Shown in pieces: positions 8,945 through 25,235 of a stretch of 35,063 nt of DNA (the first letter of the stretch is position 1; the number at the start of each line of letters is the position of its first letter). The stretch spans positions 1 through 35,063 of the forward strand of contig MGKV01000001.1 of the NCBI GenBank assembly GCA_001795795.1. Direction: 5' to 3'. The translations under genes and the position numbers were made by a program. Source of the stretch: Candidatus Yanofskybacteria bacterium RIFCSPLOWO2_02_FULL_45_18 (GTDB lineage Bacteria; Patescibacteriota; Minisyncoccia; 2-02-FULL-40-12; GWA2-44-9). The notes beneath the pieces were generated by a model, which saw only the letters and a program-made list of their open reading frames with translations, did not search any database and had not been told where the DNA came from.

Positions 8945-9559
8945 TTAAATTTCAACTGTCTCGGGCGGCCGCCCGAGATTGGAAATAAGAGGAATGACCA
9001 TGTCCTGGTCATCCTCTAGTTTAAATGGCGTGGCCTCGTGTGAGGTCTCACCGCTATCGTTGGGAAGCCGTGGAGGCTCTCCAACGACATATCGTCGGAG
9101 AAGCTCTTTCATCTCCAGCGTTTCCGCGAGATGCCATGGAGTGACACCTCTCCAATCGGGCGCCGCGACATCCGCGCCCTTGCGAAGCAGAAGCTTCGCA
9201 AACCGCCCCTGGTTGCTCATGACGGCGTAATGCAGGGGGGTCCACCCTCCCGCATCGTCGGAATTGACCGGCGCCCCAGCGATGACCAACATGACCGCCG
9301 CGTTAAAGTTTCCACCCCGCACCGCCTCAATAAGCGGAGTGGAGCGGGAAGATTCATTCAAGCGGTAAACCGCCAAGGAATCCTTCTCTAAAATCTGGCG
9401 GAGAAGTTCGTTATCTCCGCGAGAAATTGCGAAGAAAATATCTCCTTCGCTTGGCGGATTTGCCGCCGAAAAAATTCCTACGAAGCCGAGGAGACCAAAG
9501 GCCACCACGGCTAAAAAAACAACGATTGCGGGCATCCGCCGATCTGTCTTCCTATTCAT
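8945..9559 (-). CDS. Membrane-anchored ankyrin-repeat protein (revised start; track start 9628)
   Basis: TM segment after MNRKTDRRMPAIVVFLAVVAFGLLGFVGIF; repeats STPLIEAVRGGNFNAAVMLVIAGAPVN and GWTPLHYAVMSNQGRFAKLLLRKGADVAAPD; AAAGGAGGGG SD before the ATG at 9559. Confidence 0.85.
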   Translation of the reverse strand: MNRKTDRRMPAIVVFLAVVAFGLLGFVGIFSAANPPSEGDIFFAISRGDNELLRQILEKDSLAVYRLNESSRSTPLIEAVRGGNFNAAVMLVIAGAPVNSDDAGGWTPLHYAVMSNQGRFAKLLLRKGADVAAPDWRGVTPWHLAETLEMKELLRRYVVGEPPRLPNDSGETSHEATPFKLEDDQDMVIPLISNLGRPPETVEI

Positions 9560-9605
9560 TTCATGGCCCCTCCTTTGGGCCTTCCGAGTTGTTAAGCTAT
9601 CTATA

Positions 9606-9635
9606 ATTATAGCACAAAAGATGAGCATTTGTCAA
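9606..9635 (-). promoter_or_regulatory. Sigma70-type promoter for the ankyrin gene
   Basis: Minus strand TTGACA-N18-TATAAT. Confidence 0.7.
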
Positions 9636-10916: not shown

Positions 10917-12065
10917 ATGTCTAAAATACTCATCCTGATTTTGGTTGCCGTTGTTGCTGTTGTCGGTTTTCGCTTGTCAAAGATTAAAACCGCAGAGCCG
11001 GAATCGGGCGACCAAGCCAGCTATCAGCTTACGGTGGTGGAGCCGGAAGTTTATGTTAAAAAAACAGGGGATACGGAATTTCAGAAAATAAGCGGGACTG
11101 CTGAAATCGGAGTTGGTTTTGAAGTGAAAACTTCCGCCGCCGGACAAGCCGAAATCACATACCCCAACGGCACAACCGTCAGCATTGAAGAAAACAGTCG
11201 AATAAAAATCGCCGCTTTAGCCAAAGACGGCAGCCAGTCGCATATTGAACTTATCGGGGGCAGTGTCTGGTCAAGAATTAAGAAAATTTTGGGGGCGGAT
11301 GATTATTACGAAGTTGAAACGGAAAATACCGTTGCTTCGGTTCGCGGGACAATTTTTGCAATGAGTTATTCAAACGGCGTCTCGGACCTCTATGTTCTGG
11401 AGAATAAAGTAAAAGCCAAAGCAAAAGACCCTCAAACCAAAAAAATACTAGAGGAAACAGTCGTAGAAATAGCCAGCGAGGAAAAAATCGCTTTTGACAA
11501 TAAGGCGTTGGCCGCCGGCATCAGGAAATTCGCGAAAGAAAAGATGAAAGACGACGATTTCAAAAAGAAGTTCGTTGAACGGCACTTGAAAAAATTACAG
11601 GATAAGGACTTTGACAGCGACGATATGCTCCGCATCCGTGAGCGCATCAAAATACTTTACCTTGAATTGATGTCATCTGCCAGCCCGACCGCATCGCCGA
11701 CCAAATCTTTTTTCCCCTCGCCAAGCCCGACAGCTGAAAAATCAGCTACGCCGCTTCCAACTCCGACTCCAACGCTTAAAGAAATTGCGCCCACGGTCAG
11801 CCCCGAACCCGTCATTGAATCCGTCATCCCGCGAACCGTTGACGTCTCCTCTACCGGAAGAGCTGAATTTCTGATTAACGGCCGTAATTTAACCGGCATC
11901 AAACAGATTCTTATAGGCGACGCAAATGTCAGTTTCTTTGTGTCTGATTCGCTGACAATTTTTGTTACCGCCACCAGTTCCATCCGGCCGGGGATATATG
12001 ATATTTCAATTATCGGCTCAAATGGCAAAAAACTGACCTCGCCCCAAGCCGTAGAAATTAAGTAA
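10917..12065 (+). CDS. FecR-domain protein with Pro/Thr/Ser linker and C-terminal IPT/TIG-like domain
   Basis: N-terminal TM; EVKTSAAGQAEITYPNGTTVSIEENSRIKI...GGSVWSRIKKILGADDYYEVETENTVASVRGTIF (FecR); PTASPTKSFFPSPSPT linker; VIPRTVDVSSTGRAEFLINGRNLTGIKQILIGD. Confidence 0.8.
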   Translation: MSKILILILVAVVAVVGFRLSKIKTAEPESGDQASYQLTVVEPEVYVKKTGDTEFQKISGTAEIGVGFEVKTSAAGQAEITYPNGTTVSIEENSRIKIAALAKDGSQSHIELIGGSVWSRIKKILGADDYYEVETENTVASVRGTIFAMSYSNGVSDLYVLENKVKAKAKDPQTKKILEETVVEIASEEKIAFDNKALAAGIRKFAKEKMKDDDFKKKFVERHLKKLQDKDFDSDDMLRIRERIKILYLELMSSASPTASPTKSFFPSPSPTAEKSATPLPTPTPTLKEIAPTVSPEPVIESVIPRTVDVSSTGRAEFLINGRNLTGIKQILIGDANVSFFVSDSLTIFVTATSSIRPGIYDISIIGSNGKKLTSPQAVEIK

Positions 12066-12073
12066 CCGCCAAA

Positions 12074-14023
12074 ATGTTTTCTCCCAAAAGATATTACCTA
12101 TTAAGCGCTATCGCGATAGCCGCCGCTTTGTCCGCTCTCATGGTCAGTGGGGCTTTTAAGATGTCGCGAGAGAAACTGACGGATTTTTTGTTCACCGCCA
12201 AAAACGCGCCGGACAACATTGTAATTGTTGAAATAGATGACGAAAGCATCCGGACATTGGGCCAATGGCCTTGGCCGCGGTCTTTGTTCGGTTCCCTTGT
12301 CGACAAACTGCAAGCCGCCAAAGTCATCGGAATTGATGTGAATTTTAAAGAGCGCTCCCGCCTCGGAGAAGCGGATGATCTGGCGCTAGCGGCCGTTCTT
12401 AAAAGATCGGCGATTCCAGTAATCTTGTCGGCTGAATTGCTACCCAATGGCGGCTTAATTCAGCCAGCCAGCGTATTTTCCGAAAGCATCAACGCATATA
12501 CCAACATCGTAATCTCGGCCGATGGGACGGCCAGAAAAATAAACTACAGCAATCAGGGACGGTTGAACTTCGCCGCAACCGTCGCCCAAAAATATCTGGG
12601 CGACGGCAAAATATCTATCCCTTCACAGATAAGCCGTATTTTTTACGGCGGTCCCAACCGGACATATTCTCACACTAAAGCCCTCGATGTTCTGAAAAAC
12701 GGTTTCAAGACGAAGGTTGTAAAAGATAAAATAGTCTTATTGGGCGCCACGGCCCGCGACTTGCAGGATTATCACCAGACGGCCTTTAACTTAACCAGCG
12801 GTGTGGAAATACAAGCCAACGCCGTCAGCACTCTTTTGGAACAAAGGTTCTTTAGGGAGAGTTCTTTTACAAACATCCTCCTCGTTATTTTGTTGTCGCT
12901 TTACGGCGCTTGGCTAAGCCATAAAATTAAAAATTTTCTTGGTTTATTCGCCGCAATCGGCGTATCGCTAGCAACTTACAATATAACAGCTTTCGCGTTG
13001 TTTGACCGTTTGATTCTTGTTGACCTTTTTTATCCCAATCTTGCTTTCGCGTTAGGCAGTATCACATCGCTGGGAATTGAATACTTTGCCACCTCCAAAG
13101 AAAAGAAATTTATACAGGAATCCTTCGGGCGCTACCTTTCTCCTGATGTTATACGGGCAATCCTTAAAAATCCCGCCACCTTATCGTTAGGCGGCAAGAA
13201 GGAAAACCTTACCGTCTTGTTTTCCGATATCCGTTCTTTTACCACTATTTCCGAAACTATGCCTCCGGAAAAATTAACTCATTTCCTAAACAGCTATCTC
13301 GGCCGGATGACCGATATTATTCTGAATTCCGGCGGCGTTATAGACAAATACATCGGCGACGCAATAATGTCTTTTTGGGGCGCACCGTTGCCCAAGCCGG
13401 ATCATGCATTAGCCGGTGTGCTGGCAGCTATTAAGATGGTGGCTGAACTGCAGAAATTTAATGAGGAGCATACAAGGCATAACGACAGCTATCCTGCCGT
13501 AAATATCGGGGTTGGCATTAACTCCGGCGAAGTTACCGTCGGAAACATGGGCTCGGAAAAAAGATTTGATTATACGGTCATCGGCGATAATGTCAATTTG
13601 GCGTCCCGTCTTGAAAGTTTGACCAAAACATACGGCGTAAATATCCTCATCAGCGAAATGACAAAACAAATGTTACCTGTTCCGAGCAAAGCCGAGGAAG
13701 GGGAAAATGATGCGACTGCGCGTAAAATTATGACTCGCGAGCTGGACAGGGTCTTGGTGAAAGGCAAAAAACATCCTGTGCGGATATATGAAGTTGTCCC
13801 GCAGGGAAAAGAGAATGGGATTGTTCCCATATTGGATATATTTGACGGTGGCCGTGAGCATTATTACAAAGGGGAGTGGGATAAAGCTATAGAGAAATTT
13901 GAGACGGTGTTGACGGCCAACCCACAAGACGGTCCGTCGCAGACCTTGCGCGACCGCTGTGAAGGCCTCAAGCACCGCCAGGATTTCAAGTGGGAAGGGG
14001 TATTTGAATATAAAGAAAAGTAA
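12074..14023 (+). CDS. CHASE2-domain class III adenylate/guanylate cyclase
   Basis: CHASE2: IVIVEIDDESIRTLGQWPWPRSLFGSLVDKL; TM helices; cyclase LTVLFSDIRSFTTISE...GGVIDKYIGDAIMSFWGAP...KRFDYTVIGDNVNLASRLES. Confidence 0.93.
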   Translation: MFSPKRYYLLSAIAIAAALSALMVSGAFKMSREKLTDFLFTAKNAPDNIVIVEIDDESIRTLGQWPWPRSLFGSLVDKLQAAKVIGIDVNFKERSRLGEADDLALAAVLKRSAIPVILSAELLPNGGLIQPASVFSESINAYTNIVISADGTARKINYSNQGRLNFAATVAQKYLGDGKISIPSQISRIFYGGPNRTYSHTKALDVLKNGFKTKVVKDKIVLLGATARDLQDYHQTAFNLTSGVEIQANAVSTLLEQRFFRESSFTNILLVILLSLYGAWLSHKIKNFLGLFAAIGVSLATYNITAFALFDRLILVDLFYPNLAFALGSITSLGIEYFATSKEKKFIQESFGRYLSPDVIRAILKNPATLSLGGKKENLTVLFSDIRSFTTISETMPPEKLTHFLNSYLGRMTDIILNSGGVIDKYIGDAIMSFWGAPLPKPDHALAGVLAAIKMVAELQKFNEEHTRHNDSYPAVNIGVGINSGEVTVGNMGSEKRFDYTVIGDNVNLASRLESLTKTYGVNILISEMTKQMLPVPSKAEEGENDATARKIMTRELDRVLVKGKKHPVRIYEVVPQGKENGIVPILDIFDGGREHYYKGEWDKAIEKFETVLTANPQDGPSQTLRDRCEGLKHRQDFKWEGVFEYKEK

Positions 14024-14153: not shown

Positions 14154-14178
14154 AAAAAGCCCCGGTTGGTTACGGGGC
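14154..14178 (-). terminator. Terminator of the minus-strand gene at 14170-15492
   Basis: Minus strand GCCCCG-TAACCAAC-CGGGGC-TTTTTGTT. Confidence 0.6.
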
Positions 14179-15492
14179 AGGGTCAAACAGATGAAGTTCG
14201 CGAATTTTCTTGAATTTGGCGATGAAGTCGTTTGTTTCATTTATGTGTGTACTGATGGCGGCTTTTTGGGCTGAATACTTGCTTGGACCACCATTATAAA
14301 TCCCGGCTCTGATTTCATCTATTTCATCCAGCGTCAGTTTGGCAAAAAGTTCGCGATAAGACTTTTTTTTGTTAGCTTTCGCGATAACAGCCGAAAAGTG
14401 GTCATCAAAAACTAACACGGACGCCTTAATGCCGTTAACCACATCCGCCCGCCCGATATTACGGTCGGGTATTAATTTAGCTTCGGGATATATTTGAGCT
14501 ACGCCGGTTCTTCTTGAGGCAAACCGACTCGGATTACTGTATGTGTTGGGCATTATTTGCCCCAACCCCAAAGCGCCGGTTTTGGAAAAAGTATAACGGA
14601 AAGTCTTATCGCCATTTGAACCAAGTCTGACCAAAACCCTTTCCGCCACCATCTTGCCTCCATCTTCTGAATTCAGCAGGAGTTTGGGGTCCGATTGTTC
14701 AGTCAGGAAAATATTCTTCACAAAAGTTGGCGTGATGGTATCAACCGCCAATTTGTCGAGATAAGCATGCGATTTAACCCCCAGCTCGCGTAACGACTGA
14801 AAAGCTGTATCCGTATTTTCATTAAGAAACTTTAGGCCGGCCGCAACCAGTTCAGCCGTATGGATAAGCGGCGAGTAGGGGACATAAATTATGCCGGAAA
14901 GCTTTTTGCCTGTTTTGTCTTCAGGATAAACCAAAGCATCATTGTCTTTGAGATATTTGTTGGCAATTACAACATAGCGGTCTTGGACAATGTCGCCCTT
15001 TTTCTGAATACGCAAGTCCGAATTGTGGCTGTTCCACCAATTTACGATGACCTCATATTCTTCGCCGGAATCATTCGGGACAAAATTAGGCAGGCCTTTT
15101 GAGTCCAGATATTTCTTGCGAAGCTTGTCGGCTTCATCCATCTCACTTTCACTTAACCAGTAGCGCTTTTCAAACACTTCACCGCTATCGCGGTTCAATA
15201 TCACCAAAGCTATCTCGCGATATCTGCGCGTAACTTTAACAACGCCTTTTTTAGTTTTTATTTTCGCAGTTTCTTCGCGATAACCCAGTTCCGGTGAAAG
15301 AGACAAAATTTGCATCGCCTGACCAATTTTTTCAAGCAAGCTGAATGTGTACGGAGCATACGGATTAGGCGTAGAAGTCGGTTCGTTGACAACAAAAATA
15401 TTCCAATTTGAAAAAATGGCGTCGGTTTGCGCGGGATAAATCAGAGCCGCGGCCGCAATTAAGCGCAGAGCGATAATTGTTTTTTTAATCAT
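14170..15492 (-). CDS. Exported lytic transglycosylase-like protein (SLT-type domain at C-terminus)
   Basis: Signal peptide; FSKTGALGLGQIMPNTYSN, NIGRADVVNGIKASVLVFDDHF, IRAGIYNGGPSKY. Confidence 0.7.
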   Translation of the reverse strand: MIKKTIIALRLIAAAALIYPAQTDAIFSNWNIFVVNEPTSTPNPYAPYTFSLLEKIGQAMQILSLSPELGYREETAKIKTKKGVVKVTRRYREIALVILNRDSGEVFEKRYWLSESEMDEADKLRKKYLDSKGLPNFVPNDSGEEYEVIVNWWNSHNSDLRIQKKGDIVQDRYVVIANKYLKDNDALVYPEDKTGKKLSGIIYVPYSPLIHTAELVAAGLKFLNENTDTAFQSLRELGVKSHAYLDKLAVDTITPTFVKNIFLTEQSDPKLLLNSEDGGKMVAERVLVRLGSNGDKTFRYTFSKTGALGLGQIMPNTYSNPSRFASRRTGVAQIYPEAKLIPDRNIGRADVVNGIKASVLVFDDHFSAVIAKANKKKSYRELFAKLTLDEIDEIRAGIYNGGPSKYSAQKAAISTHINETNDFIAKFKKIRELHLFDPAP

Positions 15493-15562: not shown

Positions 15563-16873
15563 CTAGAGATTTGGCTCGATCTGGTCAGCTTTGTTTAAAA
15601 CCGCGCTGGCATAATAATTGCAAATGCGCGAAGTGCAGGTGGGTTTGCCGCTGATATAGGCCTTGGCGGCGCGGGTTTCACCGGTACGATCTTTACTGGT
15701 CGCTCCACCATTAGCAAGTTTGATGGCTGAAGCCATAAACGCGTCCTCTATGCTCCAAGGATTGGGCGGATTATGTCCGGTTAAGCGGGCAACTTCATTC
15801 TCATAAGCCAGCCATGTAGAGGGCAGAAATTGCGCCGGCCCCAAAGCTCCGCCACAACCATAGTTCGGCTCGCGCGAGACCTTAACCGTATCAGGATTAA
15901 GCCCAAGCTTGTTAACAATTGCCAGAAAGGCGTTTTTCTCCGTTTCCGCCCTTTGCGGTTTGCCAAGCCGCAGGTAGCAAGTGTACATATCCTGCATCCA
16001 GTTGCCGGTGCCGACATTTCGGCCCAATCCGGACTCAATTTCCAGTATGGCGATTAAAAACGCGGGGCGTATATTGGCGGCTATGGCCGCGAGCTGGCCG
16101 TATTTAACCGCATCTTCTGCCGAAACTCCGTATTGCTGAAGGTAGGTGACCTGCGCCCTGATTTTCCCAATGTCGCTTTGGGACTTTTTAACCAATTCCT
16201 GAAACTTGGACTCCTGACCCTTGGTAATCGTTAACAATCTGCTTTTGTCGTTTTTGTTGCCGCCGAGATTTTTTTTCTGCAATTCCTGCAAAGATTTAAG
16301 TTCTTTCAGCTCTTGCCGCTTATCTTCCAACTCCTGCTGACGCTGTTCCAGTTCGCCTTTGAGTTTCTTAATGTTGTCTATGGTCAGGCGCAAATTATCC
16401 TGCGTTGCGTTGAGATTGTTCAAATTATTAAAAAAGTCCGACAATGTATGGTTTTGAAGCAGTATTTCCGTAAGAGTTTTCTGGTCAATTTGATAAGCTA
16501 GTTTTAAGTATTGGGCCAGCGCCTGCCGATGCAGGATAATCTTGCTTTGGGCTTCATTTATTTTGCCTTCAGTGTCGTTTATTTCAATGCCGGTCTGGTC
16601 AATGGAAATAGCCAGAATTTTTATCTCCAGCGTAAGCTGGTTTATCTTGGCATTCAGCTTGGCAATCTCGTTCTCCAGCGTCCGCGACTGGCCGCGGGCG
16701 GAATCAACCTGCTGTTGGTATTGTTCAATTTGCCGCTGGAGTTCTTCAATCTGCTGGTTCCGTTTGTCAATTTCATCCTGCACGGCAGCGGAAGCGATGC
16801 CAGCCAATAACCAATAGCCGATAGCCAATAGAAAAATCGCTGATAAAATTCCGGATTTCTTACTTAGAATCAT
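15563..16873 (-). CDS. Coiled-coil exported lytic transglycosylase (MltB / SLT_2-like)
   Basis: Signal peptide; long coiled coil (DEIDKRNQQIEELQRQIEQYQQQVDSARG...); FLIAILEIESGLGRNVGTGNW...CGGALGPAQFLPSTWLAYENEV...NPWSIEDAFMASAIKLANGGA. Confidence 0.85.
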   Translation of the reverse strand: MILSKKSGILSAIFLLAIGYWLLAGIASAAVQDEIDKRNQQIEELQRQIEQYQQQVDSARGQSRTLENEIAKLNAKINQLTLEIKILAISIDQTGIEINDTEGKINEAQSKIILHRQALAQYLKLAYQIDQKTLTEILLQNHTLSDFFNNLNNLNATQDNLRLTIDNIKKLKGELEQRQQELEDKRQELKELKSLQELQKKNLGGNKNDKSRLLTITKGQESKFQELVKKSQSDIGKIRAQVTYLQQYGVSAEDAVKYGQLAAIAANIRPAFLIAILEIESGLGRNVGTGNWMQDMYTCYLRLGKPQRAETEKNAFLAIVNKLGLNPDTVKVSREPNYGCGGALGPAQFLPSTWLAYENEVARLTGHNPPNPWSIEDAFMASAIKLANGGATSKDRTGETRAAKAYISGKPTCTSRICNYYASAVLNKADQIEPNL

Positions 16874-17009: not shown

Positions 17010-19400
17010 ATGAATCAAACAGCAAATCTTAAGGTGAAAATCTTTCTTTTGCCATTTTTGGTTTTGCTGTTGTTCTTCGGATTCGCTGCCGAAGGCCGTG
17101 CCGCCAACGGCATAATGGGACGCAGTTTTATGTTGGGCGTGAGCTACTTTGACGGCATGAGCGCCGACAGCGGCGACCTGAACGCTGATTTAGTAAAGTT
17201 AAAGAACGAAGGATTTGAAGCCATAAGAGTGTGGGCTACATGGGTGCATTTTACCGGCAGTCAATTTGTGGATGTATTTGACGCGAATGGCGGTATCAAC
17301 GATGCGGGATTAGCTAACTTGAAGCAGGTTATAACTGCGGCCAAGAATAACGGCATGATCGTGGATGTGACATTTTGTTACTGCGATGAGACACCGTTGA
17401 GGGCAGACAACGCGTATATAGATGGCGTGATAGCGACCGCCGACGCTCTAAAAAATTACAATAACATCTTCTTTGACATAAACAACGAAGGGAACCATGC
17501 CAATGTCAGAAGTGGAAATAATAGTGTGCCAAATTTGACCGCTATTCAACTTAAGAAGATTAGAGACGGAATTGAAACAGTTAACCCAACGCTTCCGGTT
17601 ACTGTTTCATGGGATGAAGATGCAGCCGATGCTTATAGAGCCGTTAACACAGATTTTATAACTACTCATGCGCCTAGTAGGACTGGCGATTCTCAATGGG
17701 CTAATGAAACAGACGATACCTTCAATGCGATAAGCGCGGACGCGGGCCCTGGAGCGGCAGTATTATTTGACGAGCCGAATAGGTGCGGAGGGGAGCCGCC
17801 CTCCTTTCCCCGAGCCGGAAAAATGGAATGTCAGAATTTGTCGGAAGCAAATATATTCATCGATGCCGCCAAGAATGCCAAGTCCGCCGGCGCCGCCGGC
17901 TGGTTTTTGCACAATTGGGCCAGTTATGATTTAAGAGGACAATCTATGTTTGATAATTTTAATAACGTTGAAGAAAAAATCATAGAAGATGCTGAAGAAG
18001 AGCTGAATAATGTTCAATGGGGCGGAAACGAGGAGGATGAAGAAGAGCCGCCGCCTGATGAGAGCGGGGGGGGAGATAATTTCTGCGGTGCGGGGTGGCG
18101 GACGTTAGGCGACAGTTTGACTCCAGGATCGGCCGGTCCTTGTGAGGTTGGGCCATCGCGCGAAGACTGCGTGAATATGCCGACTATGGATGAACGACAA
18201 CGTTGTATGTCCCGGCAGGTAGGCGAGCTTGAATTTAGATGCGGAGAGCAAGCATTGGAATGCTGGATTTTCCCCTTTGGCGTGGGCGATTCAAAGATTA
18301 GCGGAATAGAACGGGAATGCAACGGCTCTCAATATGCCACTACTACGCTAGACGGCGGGGAAAGCCAAAGTTTGGGAGACGTACCCGGCACAATCGGGGT
18401 GAGAGGTCCGGCTAATAAAGCGCGGGCTACTCTATGCGAAAAATGTCCCGATGATGATCCGGATTGCGGAACGACCGAGGAACCGGCTCAAACTTATAAG
18501 GTTTGCAAACAAAATACTTGCACCGTTCAATTGGAGGCGCCGGCGGAGGGGGAAGCAACCTGCGATGATATTCCGGAAAATGCTCCCTGCGAAGCCCAAC
18601 AGGCCCATAATTACTGCGATAGTACCGGCCAATGCCGCGTCGGCTTCAGTAATGAAGCGCAAGAAAGCGACTGCAACGCTTGCCTTAGTTCTGTCAGCGA
18701 TGACTGCAAAGCGCTAGACACTGATACTAACAACGAGTGGAGCGCTGACGAGTGCGCCGCCGAAGGAGCAAAAGACCAATGCCCGACATTGTGTTCCGGT
18801 TATGGCACCGATTCGCCACAGATCGGGCCCGGAAGCGGCCCCGACTTTACGGAAAGCCCGCCCTTGCCGGCCTTACCTCCGGCGGCCAACATCGGGCAAC
18901 TGATTTCCCGCTTATTTACTTGGTCTCTAAGCATTGTCGGCGCCGCCGTATTTTTAATGATATTTTTTGCCGGAGTTTTGCGCATTACCGCCGCCGGAAA
19001 TCCCCAAAAAATAAAACAATCCACGGAATATATTAAAAACGCCATTTCGGGCGCGATACTTCTTTTCTCGGCATACATAATTCTTAATACCATTAATCCC
19101 GATCTAGTAAAGCAAGAGGGTACGCTATTTCCCGGTCTGCAAAATCCAGACGGGACAACAACTACGACGACCACAACACTATCTGGTTTGGGCAAAAAAT
19201 GCGGACCCAACGGAGAATGTCCTAATCCGGAGCAGATGGTTTGCGGCAGTAACGAAATTTGCATTCGTAATGACAGCAATTTAGAAAACGAACCGTGCCT
19301 AGATCCAAGCGATTGCGCTGAAGATCTGGAGTGCTCATCAAGCGGCACAACTCCGGGGAAATGCCAGCCAATCAGCATCGCCCCGCCCGGCCAAGAATAA
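17010..19400 (+). CDS. Exported multidomain protein: GH5-like glycosidase domain, Cys-rich segments, VirB2/TrbC-like two-TM segment, Cys-rich tail
   Basis: Signal peptide; GFEAIRVWATWVHF, NIFFDINNEGNH and AVLFDEPNRCGG (candidate acid/base and nucleophile Glu); two-TM block IGQLISRLFTWSLSIVGAAVFLMIFFAGVLRITAAGNPQKIKQSTEYIKNAISGAILLFSAYIILNTINPDL; Thr8 linker; C-rich tail. Confidence 0.75.
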   Translation: MNQTANLKVKIFLLPFLVLLLFFGFAAEGRAANGIMGRSFMLGVSYFDGMSADSGDLNADLVKLKNEGFEAIRVWATWVHFTGSQFVDVFDANGGINDAGLANLKQVITAAKNNGMIVDVTFCYCDETPLRADNAYIDGVIATADALKNYNNIFFDINNEGNHANVRSGNNSVPNLTAIQLKKIRDGIETVNPTLPVTVSWDEDAADAYRAVNTDFITTHAPSRTGDSQWANETDDTFNAISADAGPGAAVLFDEPNRCGGEPPSFPRAGKMECQNLSEANIFIDAAKNAKSAGAAGWFLHNWASYDLRGQSMFDNFNNVEEKIIEDAEEELNNVQWGGNEEDEEEPPPDESGGGDNFCGAGWRTLGDSLTPGSAGPCEVGPSREDCVNMPTMDERQRCMSRQVGELEFRCGEQALECWIFPFGVGDSKISGIERECNGSQYATTTLDGGESQSLGDVPGTIGVRGPANKARATLCEKCPDDDPDCGTTEEPAQTYKVCKQNTCTVQLEAPAEGEATCDDIPENAPCEAQQAHNYCDSTGQCRVGFSNEAQESDCNACLSSVSDDCKALDTDTNNEWSADECAAEGAKDQCPTLCSGYGTDSPQIGPGSGPDFTESPPLPALPPAANIGQLISRLFTWSLSIVGAAVFLMIFFAGVLRITAAGNPQKIKQSTEYIKNAISGAILLFSAYIILNTINPDLVKQEGTLFPGLQNPDGTTTTTTTTLSGLGKKCGPNGECPNPEQMVCGSNEICIRNDSNLENEPCLDPSDCAEDLECSSSGTTPGKCQPISIAPPGQE

Positions 19401-19637: not shown

Positions 19638-20153
19638 ATGGTTTTTTCTTTTTGGCTTAAGTTCGGACTGGCGGGACTGGTTTTGACGTTACTTCTGACC
19701 CTCCTGACCAAAAACGAAGCGGTTCTTGTGTTGGGGCTGTTTGTTTCGGCCATTTGCGGCTGGCTGGCTCTCTGGTTTGACGGTATGGGCGAACCGCTAA
19801 AATTTGCCGAAAGTTTTGACGGATATTGGCCTAATCTTCCTGTAGCAATGGGTTTGTCCTGCCTGGCGGCCGGTTCGCTATTGTTGGTTTCCGTTTGCAG
19901 AATAAGGTCACTAGCGCCGCAAACAAAACAGTTGCTGGCCAAATACAACAGCCCGAACTCCGGCAGTTACCGTCCCAATTGGCGTTTCTCATCCAAGCAT
20001 AGCTGGCTAAAAGCGCGGCTAAAAGAATTTCTTAAGCATCTTTTCTACGATGGCTTCAGTTTTCTTTTTTACGGTTTGCTGTTCTTCTTTGCCAGCAAAA
20101 CCATCGGCCGTCTTGGGCCGGTTAAAAGACTCATCGCAAAATTAAGGAGATAG
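19638..20153 (+). CDS. Hypothetical membrane protein, first gene of a three-gene operon
   Basis: Multiple hydrophobic helices; 2-nt gap to the next gene. Confidence 0.7.
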   Translation: MVFSFWLKFGLAGLVLTLLLTLLTKNEAVLVLGLFVSAICGWLALWFDGMGEPLKFAESFDGYWPNLPVAMGLSCLAAGSLLLVSVCRIRSLAPQTKQLLAKYNSPNSGSYRPNWRFSSKHSWLKARLKEFLKHLFYDGFSFLFYGLLFFFASKTIGRLGPVKRLIAKLRR

Positions 20154-20155
20154 TT

Positions 20156-21226
20156 ATGCAAGCTATCAGAAACACTGTCCGGCTTTTGTGCGCCGCGGTA
20201 TTCCTTTTTGGAATCGTGGCGGTTGGTTTCCGCTATACGACTTTCCCTAACATTTTCCTGATTTGGAGCGGGTCGGCAATTGTATTGATTTGCGACGCGG
20301 CGCGGACTTTCTTCCCCAAATCCCTAATCTCCAAATTCACTTACTTCATGGCCATAGTCGGGCTGATTTATTCAGCCGGACGGTGGAGCTGGGAATTCCT
20401 GCAGGAATACCGGCCTTACACGGCGCAACTGCTGGAAGAAAAAAGCAAAGCCAGCGATATTGACTTCTACCGGAAAAACAAACCGGCAATGGATCCGGCT
20501 TTTTCAGAAATATTTGAAAAACATCAGCAACGGATGACGCCAATCCAAACAAACGAAATCAATAAAAAATTACTGGACATGGAGAAGAAAAAAGCGGCCG
20601 GAATGACTGAAGAAGAATTTCGAAAAGAACGGGAACAGATCGCGCTCACCGCGCATCAGATGAATGAGGACAACAAAGTCGCAAACAACTTATTGCATAA
20701 CGGTAAAAAACTAGTGGAACCGCCGCCGCAACCGCGAAAACAACTCACAAAGATACTCCTCGAATCACCATCCCTCAAGAACGCGCCTTCACCGCCCGTT
20801 AACAAATCCGAACCGACGCCAATCTTTAATCCCAAGCCAGTGGAAAAAACGGAAGCCGTCATCTATCTTCCGGACAGCTACGGCGGGAACTCAACTTCCT
20901 TTGAAATATCCGGAGGCAAAGAATATGTTTTTTGCGCCGACGGAACGTTTCACTGGTCTGACAGTTCACTTGAACCGCAAAGAAACGCGGGGCCTATCGG
21001 GTCAAACCGGCCGGCCGGAGAAGGATATCCTTTCCCCGAAGCAAACTTTCTCGCTCTGGTAGCAATTATTGAAGGCCGGCCGGAAGTTGTCGGCAAATGC
21101 CTTCACCACTATTTTGCCGGCGACGATAGCGTGCAATTTGTTCTGAATTTCCCTGAAAATTCGACTAGAAAACTGCAAGGTAAATTCCGGATTACAATCC
21201 GGTCAAAAACAGAAAAGGAGGAATAA
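20156..21226 (+). CDS. Membrane-anchored protein with C-terminal LecA/PA-IL-like beta domain (tentative)
   Basis: N-terminal TM helices; Glu/Lys-rich middle; C-terminal FCADGTFHWSDSSLEPQRNAGPIGSN...YPFPEANFLALVAIIEGRPEVVGKCLHHYFAGDDSVQFVLNFPENSTRKLQGKFRITI resembles the LecA layout. Confidence 0.65.
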   Translation: MQAIRNTVRLLCAAVFLFGIVAVGFRYTTFPNIFLIWSGSAIVLICDAARTFFPKSLISKFTYFMAIVGLIYSAGRWSWEFLQEYRPYTAQLLEEKSKASDIDFYRKNKPAMDPAFSEIFEKHQQRMTPIQTNEINKKLLDMEKKKAAGMTEEEFRKEREQIALTAHQMNEDNKVANNLLHNGKKLVEPPPQPRKQLTKILLESPSLKNAPSPPVNKSEPTPIFNPKPVEKTEAVIYLPDSYGGNSTSFEISGGKEYVFCADGTFHWSDSSLEPQRNAGPIGSNRPAGEGYPFPEANFLALVAIIEGRPEVVGKCLHHYFAGDDSVQFVLNFPENSTRKLQGKFRITIRSKTEKEE

Positions 21227-21906
21227 TGTTAAAAAAAATAATTCTGATAGTCGTGGCGGTTATCCTACCGATATCAGCTGTTGCCTATGACCTTACCAAA
21301 TTAGACGGAATAGATTTTTTAAAGAAAACAAGAAACGACATCAATAAGTACACGGTTGAGATTGTAACGCCTCAAAATATCAACCAAAAAAGTGCGTACG
21401 GGCAAAGTTATCGTAGTTACGGGCAAATTGCCGGCACCTCACCGTCCAAGACCGAAATTCTGAACGAGGAACTGATTCAGGCAATTTCGCAAAGCAACTG
21501 CTGTCTCGTGTTGATTGAAAAGAAGCACGAACCGGATATGCGGCTCATTGCAATCATTGACATTGAGACCGACATCAACAAAAAAACATCCAGCGGAGAT
21601 AACATATTCTCGCTTTTGGGCGAAGAAATCTCCCGTAAAAAAAAGTTTTATATGGGTTACCGCATTGCCCGCGGAATACGGAACATCAGGCAGGAAAAAA
21701 CCACGGTTGATATTACGATAACAATAACTTTAAAACTCGTGGATTCCGGAAGCGGGGCAATGGTAAAAAGCTCCGCAGGAAAGAGTATTGCCAGTATAAC
21801 TTTACAAAGCAGGAACAACTGGCTCGGCAAGTCCTCTTCCGCAACAGACGGAAACTTAAGACCAATTATCGTCGCCGCCACTCAAGACGCGCTTAACAAT
21901 TTCTAA
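21226..21906 (+). CDS. Exported protein with possible CsgG-like fold
   Basis: Signal peptide; LIQAISQSNCCLVLIEKKHEPDMRLIAIIDIE...YRIARGIRNIRQEKTTVDITITITLKLVDSGSGAMVKSSAGKSIAS; start overlaps the previous stop (TAATG). Confidence 0.65.
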   Translation: MLKKIILIVVAVILPISAVAYDLTKLDGIDFLKKTRNDINKYTVEIVTPQNINQKSAYGQSYRSYGQIAGTSPSKTEILNEELIQAISQSNCCLVLIEKKHEPDMRLIAIIDIETDINKKTSSGDNIFSLLGEEISRKKKFYMGYRIARGIRNIRQEKTTVDITITITLKLVDSGSGAMVKSSAGKSIASITLQSRNNWLGKSSSATDGNLRPIIVAATQDALNNF

Positions 21907-21938: not shown

Positions 21939-21964
21939 CCAGCACCAAAAGATATTGGTGCTGG
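21939..21964. repeat. 10-bp perfect hairpin upstream of mnmA
   Basis: CCAGCACCAA-aagata-TTGGTGCTGG; overlaps the track TTG start of the downstream ORF. Confidence 0.9.
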
Positions 21965-22056
21965 ACTGCGAAAATCAGCGCAATGTTGAAACTGTCGTTT
22001 CTATCATTGCGGCGATTTTCTTGCAAAATTCATTTATTGATGCAAAATATCACACT

Positions 22057-23256
22057 ATGCGGGCTAAAATTCTAAAAAAAGTTTATGTGGCTTTAAGCGG
22101 CGGCGTTGACTCTTCCGTTGCCGCAGCGCTTTTGGAAAAGCGCGGATTTAATGTTACAGGGGTTTATATGAAACAATGGACTCCTGAAATTTTAGGACGC
22201 GAATGCCTTTGGAAACGCGACAGAGAAGACGCCTTGCGGGTGGCCGTAAAACTGAACATCCCGCTTCTGACGTGGGATTTTTCAAAAGAATACGAAAAGG
22301 AGGTCGGGAAATATATGATTGACGCTTATCGGCGCGGCATCACCCCCAATCCGGATGTAATGTGCAATAAGGTTATCAAATTCGGGTTGTTTTTTAAGAA
22401 AGCAATGAAAGAAGGCGCGGATTTTATCGCTACTGGGCATTATGCAAGATTGTGGAAGGAACCAGTCCCAAGACTACCGCTCGATTCCCCAGCGAGGAAT
22501 CTCGCTGCTTTTCGTCGGTCGCTCTCTCGCTCTGCTCGAACCATGTCCGCTTCCCTCCTCGAAGCGCGCTTTGTGACCAGTTCCTTCCGCAATAAGTTGA
22601 CCGCCGCGCGAGATAAAAACAAAGACCAGACATATTTTCTGTGGACGCTAAACCAAAAAATTCTCGCAAAAACGCTATTTCCAATAGGGGATTATACCAA
22701 ACTGGAGGTGCGGAAAATGGCTAAAAAATTCGGTCTGCCGACAGCTGATAAAAAAGATAGTCAGGGCGTTTGTTTCATCGGGCCATTGAATATCAAACAA
22801 TTCCTTAAAGAATATATAAAGCCCAAAAAGGGCAAGATAATTCTTATAGATAGCCTCTCGCTTCGCTCGGGACGTTCTAATAACAAAGTTATTGGAACGC
22901 ACGACGGTGTTTATTATTATACTATCGGCCAGAGACACGGATTGGACATCAAACTGGGTGGCGGACCATATTATATCGTAAAAAAAGATGTTAAAAAAAA
23001 TATAATTTATGTCGGCTCGGAAAGCGACCTTCGGGCCTCGCAAGTCCGAATTAAGGATTTGCATTGGCTCAATAAGCCGAAAAAATTCCCCGCATTACTG
23101 GACGTAAAGATCCGCTATCGCACGCCGTCGGATAAAGCCACACTATCAGCCGGCGGCAATCTAAGATTCAAAAAACCCCAGCGCGCCATCACCTCCGGCC
23201 AATCCGCTGTTTTTTACCGTGGCCAAGAATTAATCGGAGGGGGAATTATAAAATAA
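22057..23256 (+). CDS. mnmA: tRNA-specific 2-thiouridylase with two in-frame insertions (track start 21955)
   Basis: KVYVALSGGVDSSVAAALLEKRGFNVTGVYMKQW, NPDVMCNKVIKFG, ATGHYARL, DKNKDQTYFLW, KKDSQGVCFIGP, YTIGQRHGL, VTxGQSAVFY-type C-terminus. Confidence 0.93.
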   Translation: MRAKILKKVYVALSGGVDSSVAAALLEKRGFNVTGVYMKQWTPEILGRECLWKRDREDALRVAVKLNIPLLTWDFSKEYEKEVGKYMIDAYRRGITPNPDVMCNKVIKFGLFFKKAMKEGADFIATGHYARLWKEPVPRLPLDSPARNLAAFRRSLSRSARTMSASLLEARFVTSSFRNKLTAARDKNKDQTYFLWTLNQKILAKTLFPIGDYTKLEVRKMAKKFGLPTADKKDSQGVCFIGPLNIKQFLKEYIKPKKGKIILIDSLSLRSGRSNNKVIGTHDGVYYYTIGQRHGLDIKLGGGPYYIVKKDVKKNIIYVGSESDLRASQVRIKDLHWLNKPKKFPALLDVKIRYRTPSDKATLSAGGNLRFKKPQRAITSGQSAVFYRGQELIGGGIIK

Positions 23257-23684: not shown

Positions 23685-25235
23685 TCAATTGCCGAACAGT
23701 CGCAACAAACTTTCACCGGTCATTTCAGGCGGTTTTTTAATACCAAGCAGTTCCAGTATTGTTGGCGCGACATCGGCTAAAAGGGCGCTGGCGTTTTCAG
23801 TGTTGCGGTTTATTTCATCAAAAGTTCTCGGCCGCTCGTAATCTTTGGCAATAAGATAAAGCGGGACCGGATTTTGGTTGTGCTTTGTCTCAATTTCACC
23901 TGATACTTTGTAAATAATGGATTCGGCGTTGCCGTGGTCGGCAGTTATTAAAAGTGCCCCGCCTTTTTCAAGAACTTTATTTTTAATCTCGCCAATAACC
24001 CCATCAATAACCTCCACGCCCTTTTTGACGCTTTCCGCCTTGCCGGCATGGGCAAGCACATCGGCGTTAGCAAAATTAATAACAATAAAATCGTAAAATC
24101 CACGATTCAGTTCCTCAACCACATTTTGTCCTATTTCTACGGTTTTCATCTCCGGATTTTCACTTAGATTTTTAAACGATTGGATAAGCACATTATCCTC
24201 GCCCTCAAAAGGGCCGTTGCGCAGACCATTAAAGAAGTAGGTAACATGGGCGTATTTTTCCGTTTCAGCGATGTGTAACTGTTTTTTGCCGTTTTTGCTA
24301 AGCACTTCCGCAAGACCGTTTATGACTTCGGGCGGAGAAAAAGCAACATGCAGGTTGGCGTTCTCAAGATATTCGGTCATAGAGGCGACAAACAGGCCAT
24401 TCAATTTGGTCCGCTCAAATCCGTTAAAATCTTCTTCAACAAAGGCCCGCGTGATTTGCCGCATACTATCCTCGCGGAAGTTAAAAAAGACAAGCGCGTC
24501 GTTGTCGCGGATAACACCGTCTTTACTTAGCAAAATTGGAGGGACTTTTTTGTCGTCCAGCCCTTGGCCGTAAAATTCGGTTAATTTGGCAAACATATCG
24601 GTTGCAGGTTCACCGGCGCCATTTACAAACAAGCCATACGCTTTAGCGGTAAGACCCCAATTGTTATCACGGTCCATTGCATAATCACGGCCCACTAGTG
24701 TTGAGAGCGTGCCGGTATTTTGAGAAATCTCCAACTGTAATTTCCGCAAAAGGTTAGGCGCTTCTTTAAGGCCAGAGTCCTTGCCGTCAGTAAACAGGTG
24801 CAAACTTACCTTTGGCACATCCTGTGTTTTTGCCATCTTCAAAAGCGCGGTAAGGTGGCCAAAATAGGCGTGGACAGAATTGGAAGTTAACAGGCCGAGT
24901 ATGTGGAGCGCAGAATTATTTTTCTTGGCATGCTCCATAGCGCCAAGCAATGCGGAATTCTGATAAAATTCACCGCTTCCAACGGCTTTATTGATGCGCG
25001 AAAGATATTGGAAAATAACCCGTCCGGCGCCAATAGTCAGATGCCCTACTTCGCTATTGCCAGTTTCGCCCCAATCTAATCCAGCACCCTTGCCGGAAGC
25101 CTGCAATAAAATAAAAGGGTACTGCGTTTGGATAGAATCCAGGTTGGGTGTATTGGCCTCGGCAATGGCATTGCCCAAAGTTTGCCTTGAAAAACCCCAA
25201 CCGTCCAAAATGGCGAGAACGACCGGCTTCATCAT
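23685..25235 (-). CDS. gpmI: 2,3-bisphosphoglycerate-independent phosphoglycerate mutase
   Basis: VVLAILDGWG, GNSEVGHLTIGAGRVIFQ, HLFTDGKDS, GRDYAMDRDNNW, VFFNFREDSMRQITRAF, DHGNAE. Confidence 0.96.
   Translation of the reverse strand: MMKPVVLAILDGWGFSRQTLGNAIAEANTPNLDSIQTQYPFILLQASGKGAGLDWGETGNSEVGHLTIGAGRVIFQYLSRINKAVGSGEFYQNSALLGAMEHAKKNNSALHILGLLTSNSVHAYFGHLTALLKMAKTQDVPKVSLHLFTDGKDSGLKEAPNLLRKLQLEISQNTGTLSTLVGRDYAMDRDNNWGLTAKAYGLFVNGAGEPATDMFAKLTEFYGQGLDDKKVPPILLSKDGVIRDNDALVFFNFREDSMRQITRAFVEEDFNGFERTKLNGLFVASMTEYLENANLHVAFSPPEVINGLAEVLSKNGKKQLHIAETEKYAHVTYFFNGLRNGPFEGEDNVLIQSFKNLSENPEMKTVEIGQNVVEELNRGFYDFIVINFANADVLAHAGKAESVKKGVEVIDGVIGEIKNKVLEKGGALLITADHGNAESIIYKVSGEIETKHNQNPVPLYLIAKDYERPRTFDEINRNTENASALLADVAPTILELLGIKKPPEMTGESLLRLFGN

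Follow-up and report, generated by a model that had tools for sequence, protein, structure and literature searches.

The window analysed here, a stretch of 35,063 nucleotides that forms contig C1 of a 627-kb assembly (98% complete), carries a gene whose product we read as an exported glycosidase that a VirB2-type hairpin keeps at the cell surface. In this reading, which we consider fairly likely, the domains borne by the hairpin (its passengers) are swapped at the locus. The initial annotation had described a GH5-like glycosidase fused to a pilin segment, and what is added here is a conserved passenger-swapping hairpin locus beside lytic transglycosylases, together with a hairpin clade that stands apart from array pilins. 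How CPR bacteria make contact with hosts or matrices, attack them and draw nutrients from them is an open question, and in the one case tested an epibiont needs T4SS components in order to grow (PMC12102498, PMC11665869). If our reading is correct, a conserved hydrolase-display locus built on a pilin-type hairpin would provide concrete, testable candidates for contact machinery, and VirB2-type pilins would have been reused as modular scaffolds. It is possible, though doubtful, that the hairpin has become a display platform of general use in this CPR family, with a fixed locus and interchangeable passengers swapped via pilin recombination, perhaps forming enzyme-tipped T4SS pili directed against hosts. 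No description of enzyme-pilin fusions or of such a locus was found in the literature searched, with most subscription journals lying outside that search.

Architecture of the fusion protein

The gene is an uninterrupted frame with an ATG start, and its product contains 34 cysteines in total. The features are as follows.

17010-19400, plus strand: fusion ORF, GH5-like domain and T4SS_pilin domain, 796 residues, exported (ORF call and Pfam)
17034-17108, plus strand: signal peptide (hydropathy; hydrophobic residues 9-27; cleavage site by eye)
17106-18044, plus strand: clan GH-A (beta/alpha)8 barrel, residues 33-345 (Pfam, model, Foldseek and alignment)
18045-18857, plus strand: Cys-rich spacer, 22 Cys, residues 359-595, matching no Pfam family
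18888-19094, plus strand: T4SS_pilin (VirB2-like) two-helix hairpin, residues 627-695 (Pfam and model)
19155-19178, plus strand: Thr8 linker, residues 716-723, mixed Thr codons
19200-19364, plus strand: C-terminal Cys-rich tail, 8 Cys, residues 731-785

The signal peptide, Cys-rich regions, two-TM block and tail had been proposed from the initial inspection of the DNA, and hydropathy and residue counts locate all of them in this ORF. RAAN follows the hydrophobic signal segment, and cleavage is likely near RAA/N, at residues about 30-33. The barrel includes NNIFFDINNEGNH (residues 151-163) and AVLFDEPNR (residues 250-258), and further hydrophobic segments at about 639-657 and 677-695 have a basic loop, NPQKIKQSTEYIK, between them. 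The Thr8 tract, which had been said to use mixed codons, indeed reads ACA ACA ACT ACG ACG ACC ACA ACA, with four different Thr codons.

A conserved locus with variable passengers

The fusion gene lies within a set of neighbours that can be followed in related genomes.

14170-15492, minus strand: SLT1, a second SLT-like protein (weak SLT match, 12 bits, below cut-off)
15563-16873, minus strand: SLTcc, with signal segment, coiled coil and SLT_2 lytic transglycosylase domain; divergent neighbour and conserved partner
21955-23256, plus strand: putative MnmA-like gene, so named from sequence features; a syntenic marker of the locus by homology to the relatives' genes
23685-25235, minus strand: phosphoglycerate mutase (iPGM), a syntenic marker

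Relatives were found by an alignment-based contig search, a single-sequence contig search having given no matches. The same architecture, sought in CPR genomes as had been suggested at the outset, was found in loci of the window's family, named Candidatus Yanofskybacteria, and of a second family, named Candidatus Doudnabacteria, with seven complete or near-complete GH5-pilin genes between them. The fusion is present in G011, G018, G024 and G027 (Yanofskybacteria) and in G180 and G108 (Doudnabacteria), the two Doudnabacteria proteins being 1000 and 1250 residues long; the barrel copy of G017 (Yanofskybacteria) runs off its contig before reaching a pilin. Within the window's family, 6 of 28 genomes matched the barrel search, the window's own genome included. 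The barrel also occurs in relatives outside the CPR, where no pilin was found attached. The Doudnabacteria genes (L031, L032) lie near MraZ-, RsmH- and penicillin-binding-protein-like genes, as read by eye. Separate capture of the window's barrel was also considered, since it grouped with a barrel from Sedimentisphaerales (96/92; in the tree that includes this row, AU p 0.026 against one clade of pilin-bearing barrels), but long branches lead to both and the grouping lost its support without that row, so separate capture is not claimed.

The locus itself is conserved within the family. A hairpin protein is encoded divergently from SLTcc in all 20 window-family genomes in which the contig continues, the weakest case being the partial hairpin of G003 (E 8.7e-6); in four further genomes the contig ends at the locus. 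These divergent proteins range from 106 to 1668 residues, and four are bare pilins, those of G001, G003 and G022 having been located by a six-frame search. SLT1 is likewise conserved beside SLTcc in relatives. An SLTcc homologue is widespread in the class, and among the 20 genomes sampled outside the family none had a divergent hairpin detected beside it (one side of SLTcc, with two flanks short).

Elsewhere in the window, three ORFs with no Pfam match above cut-off lie directly downstream of the fusion (19638-21906), a place taken in relatives by a second fusion or a small membrane protein. A FecR-domain protein is encoded beside a CHASE2-adenylate/guanylate cyclase gene (10917-14023), signalling genes of a kind that is unusual where a CPR genome is reduced, and an ankyrin-repeat protein is encoded at 8945-9628.

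The passengers on the locus hairpins differ even within genera and may be GH5, subtilase, TIG, a second unannotated domain, or none. Genus g12 has GH5 in G011 and G027, with the passenger family not detected in G020 and G025; genus g9 has GH5 in G018 and G024 vs TIG in G008; and genus g6 has GH5 in G017 vs subtilase plus TIG in G005. In G018, G024 and G027 the GH5 fusion is followed by a second hairpin protein with a different, unannotated N-terminal domain, and the DNA match between these neighbouring fusion genes is limited to 248-302 bp spanning the pilin, at 92.4-94.5% identity. Sequence comparison thus suggests that passengers have been exchanged around a conserved hairpin, for which recombination through the pilin segment is a likely but unproven route; the near-identical segments could alternatively be the product of a recent tandem duplication after which the passengers were replaced, instead of gene conversion. 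One module (48% identity) lies on the N-terminal side in L078 and on the C-terminal side in L068, which is consistent with both ends of the protein lying outside the cell.

Several of the alternative passengers deserve separate mention. The N-terminal domain of the second hairpin fusions (L026:9072-11222, L027:9712-12042, L028:1896-6152) has an invariant ADEP and no Pfam match, and the L028 protein adds a weak, below-cut-off reprolysin-like match after its hairpin. Subtilase domains (PF00082) lie C-terminal of the same kind of hairpin in L049:2016-6989, L051:656-4321 and L052:2979-7508. A peptidase reading made by eye for some C-terminal passengers found no Pfam support and was dropped.

The hairpin and its relation to type IV secretion pilins

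The two-TM block had been likened to VirB2/TrbC proteins, and it proves to be a PF18895 pilin hairpin. This family (T4SS_pilin) matches residues 627-695 with 41.7 bits (cut-off 26.6), and while PF04956 (TrbC/VirB2) has no match in the 796-residue protein, a related hairpin (L050:5445-7787) scores above cut-off with both families on the same segment, which links the fusion hairpin to VirB2. Its structure model consists of two long helices (12-46 and 51-81), and hydropathy and model agree on two TM helices around the basic loop. A Foldseek search with this model returned nothing significant, and the pilin profile found no solved relative among PDB sequences.

In a hairpin tree, a clade of 30 rows (100/98) unites all locus hairpins, those of Doudnabacteria and a single additional subtilase fusion; 57 other pilins, mostly from arrays, fall outside it. 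The tree rests on only 81 columns, so the branching order within this clade is uncertain; strict monophyly of the locus and Doudnabacteria hairpins without L052, itself a subtilase-pilin fusion, is not rejected (AU p 0.16).

The genome does encode T4SS components. A VirB4 ATPase (NF045971 above cut-off) and PrgI lie beside a DnaA-like gene on contig C14 (L048:2635-15643), together with a large polytopic membrane protein that is possibly VirB6, though it has no Pfam match. A pilin array of two Cys-rich large and three small pilins is found on contig C17 (L007:16903-18024, L007:19292-L008:1739), with no T4SS ATPase evident beside it. Array-type pilins with Ig-like (He_PIG) and SLT transglycosylase domains (L062:5378-7363, L064:2106-3563) represent a second, separate kind of enzyme-pilin fusion. 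The fusion gene is on contig C1, apart from both virB4 and the pilin array, so that any T4SS role for it is at most putative.

These observations bear on whether the hairpin forms a polymer, either by itself or as a minor component with the small array pilins, in which case a T4SS-type pilus would bear the glycosidase along its length or at its tip. The PF18895 match, the VirB2-like two-helix model and the presence of a pilin array, VirB4 and PrgI in the genome would all fit such an arrangement, as would the first Foldseek match to the hairpin, an archaeal conjugation pilus (8dfu), although at E 0.98 it is not significant. VirB2-like pilins and pilin arrays, as well as VirB4/PrgI beside dnaA, have been described for Patescibacteria (PMC12102498), and one such VirB2 array is essential for epibiont growth (PMC12102498, PMC12857230). 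However, small pilins sit in the array or by virB4, and the fusion gene does neither; the locus hairpins form their own clade, and one-sided passengers of up to about 890 residues would crowd a pilus. The separate clade and the large passengers therefore lead us to lean towards an anchor over a minor pilin, and we regard the pilus as somewhat unlikely.

A clan GH-A barrel with a conserved glutamate pair

The barrel had been proposed to have a clan GH-A fold, which is borne out. Cellulase (PF00150) matches residues 56-186 with 31.8 bits (cut-off 23.5), and an AlphaFold2 model (mean pLDDT 80.5, pTM 0.86), for which eight related barrels served as input, shows the eight strands expected of the beta/alpha order. 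When this model was compared with the PDB by Foldseek, GH5 and GH140 enzymes ranked first (E 1.5e-9), the top GH5-type matches having TM-scores by query of about 0.6-0.67 at 11-17% identity. The barrel sequence alone had no significant match in the PDB, while its profile gave weak GH5 matches (E 5.5e-4). Model and sequence together make assignment to clan GH-A well supported. The GH5-like label stands at this level, but family GH5 is not secure: among relatives, L031 and L032 score above the PF00150 cut-off, L027, L028 and L029 fall below it and L026 has no match, so the GH5 name is safe only at clan level.

A catalytic pair of Glu residues had also been predicted, and strand positions and conservation place E160 and E255 in the active site of the modelled barrel. 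N159-E160 follows beta-4 (strand 121-127) and E255 follows beta-7 (strand 219-221; model numbering is full length minus 32 for both strands). Around them, the model has R73 in beta-2, H220 after beta-6, and W298 and H301 in and after beta-8. In an alignment of 13 barrels, including five non-CPR rows labelled Acidobacteria, Acidimicrobiia and Sedimentisphaerales, R73, D119, N159, E160, H220, E255 and H301 are the same in every row, and position 298 is Trp except for Phe in both Doudnabacteria. Canonical GH5 enzymes usually have a His after beta-3 and a Tyr on beta-6; neither a beta-3 His nor a Tyr near H220 on beta-6 is evident here.

In our view the barrel probably functions as a retaining glycosidase, with E160 as the predicted acid/base and E255 as the predicted nucleophile. 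It might instead be a non-catalytic binding domain, an adhesin that retains the GH-A fold. The low identity to solved enzymes among the top GH5-type matches would allow this, and TIG domains, whose role is often structural or adhesive, are among the other passengers. Against this, E160, E255 and their neighbours are invariant over barrels from within and outside the CPR that share about 30% identity, which argues for retained catalysis and makes a purely binding role unlikely.

Proposed membrane anchoring and display

The signal peptide, and the two TM helices around a basic loop, lead us to infer that the barrel and Cys-rich tail face outward; the surface anchoring proposed in the initial annotation thus follows from the predicted topology. 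The signal peptide would direct Sec export of the GH-A barrel and Cys-rich spacer, and the hairpin would sit in the cytoplasmic membrane with its loop inside. The hairpin would be the constant part of the system, and the products of the two transglycosylase-type genes of the locus may serve to open up or reshape the peptidoglycan around it. The passengers that flank the hairpin appear, from their sequences, to be exchanged between genomes by recombination over the conserved pilin segment, so that the enzyme or binding domain on display would be particular to each strain and plausibly directed at the surface of a host or a matrix.

VirB2-type pilins are processed proteins, and the fusion could in principle be a precursor cut between barrel and hairpin, releasing the enzyme and leaving an ordinary small pilin. 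A Pro/Ala-rich segment ahead of TM1, PPLPALPPAAN, might accommodate such a cut. Relatives, however, also bear passengers C-terminal of the hairpin (for example the subtilase at 1095-1365 in L049), and the fused state of hairpin and passenger is kept across them, and so we give this possibility little credence. A chance fusion, or one made from two genes by an assembly or frameshift artefact, is ruled out, because the same architecture recurs in uninterrupted frames in several independent genomes.

Comparison with known systems

An anchored glycosidase at a passenger-swapping locus, the reading that we favour, shares features with three known systems. With clan GH-A glycosidases such as PbGH5A (3vdh/5d9n) and the GH140 apiosidases (8t9w, 5msy), the barrel shares the (beta/alpha)8 fold, the Asn-Glu after beta-4 and the Glu after beta-7. 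Unlike these enzymes, it has low identity to them, no assignable subfamily or substrate, and a predicted membrane anchor in the form of the pilin hairpin. The VirB1-type lytic transglycosylases of T4SS offer a likeness to SLTcc in that an exported transglycosylase-domain protein is coupled to a T4SS-type pilin gene, whereas SLTcc has a coiled coil and an MltB-like SLT_2 domain and is encoded far from virB4.

The third system is that of the Patescibacteria pilin arrays described in PMC12102498, the available sections of which make no mention of enzyme fusions of pilins. Like the genomes covered there, the window's genome has VirB4 and PrgI next to a dnaA-like gene as well as an array of small pilins, and the fusion shares PF18895, the two-helix hairpin and the phylum with those arrays. 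As described there, those pilins are small and lie in arrays or near virB4, whereas the hairpin of the fusion bears a glycosidase, is encoded singly beside transglycosylases and belongs to a separate clade.
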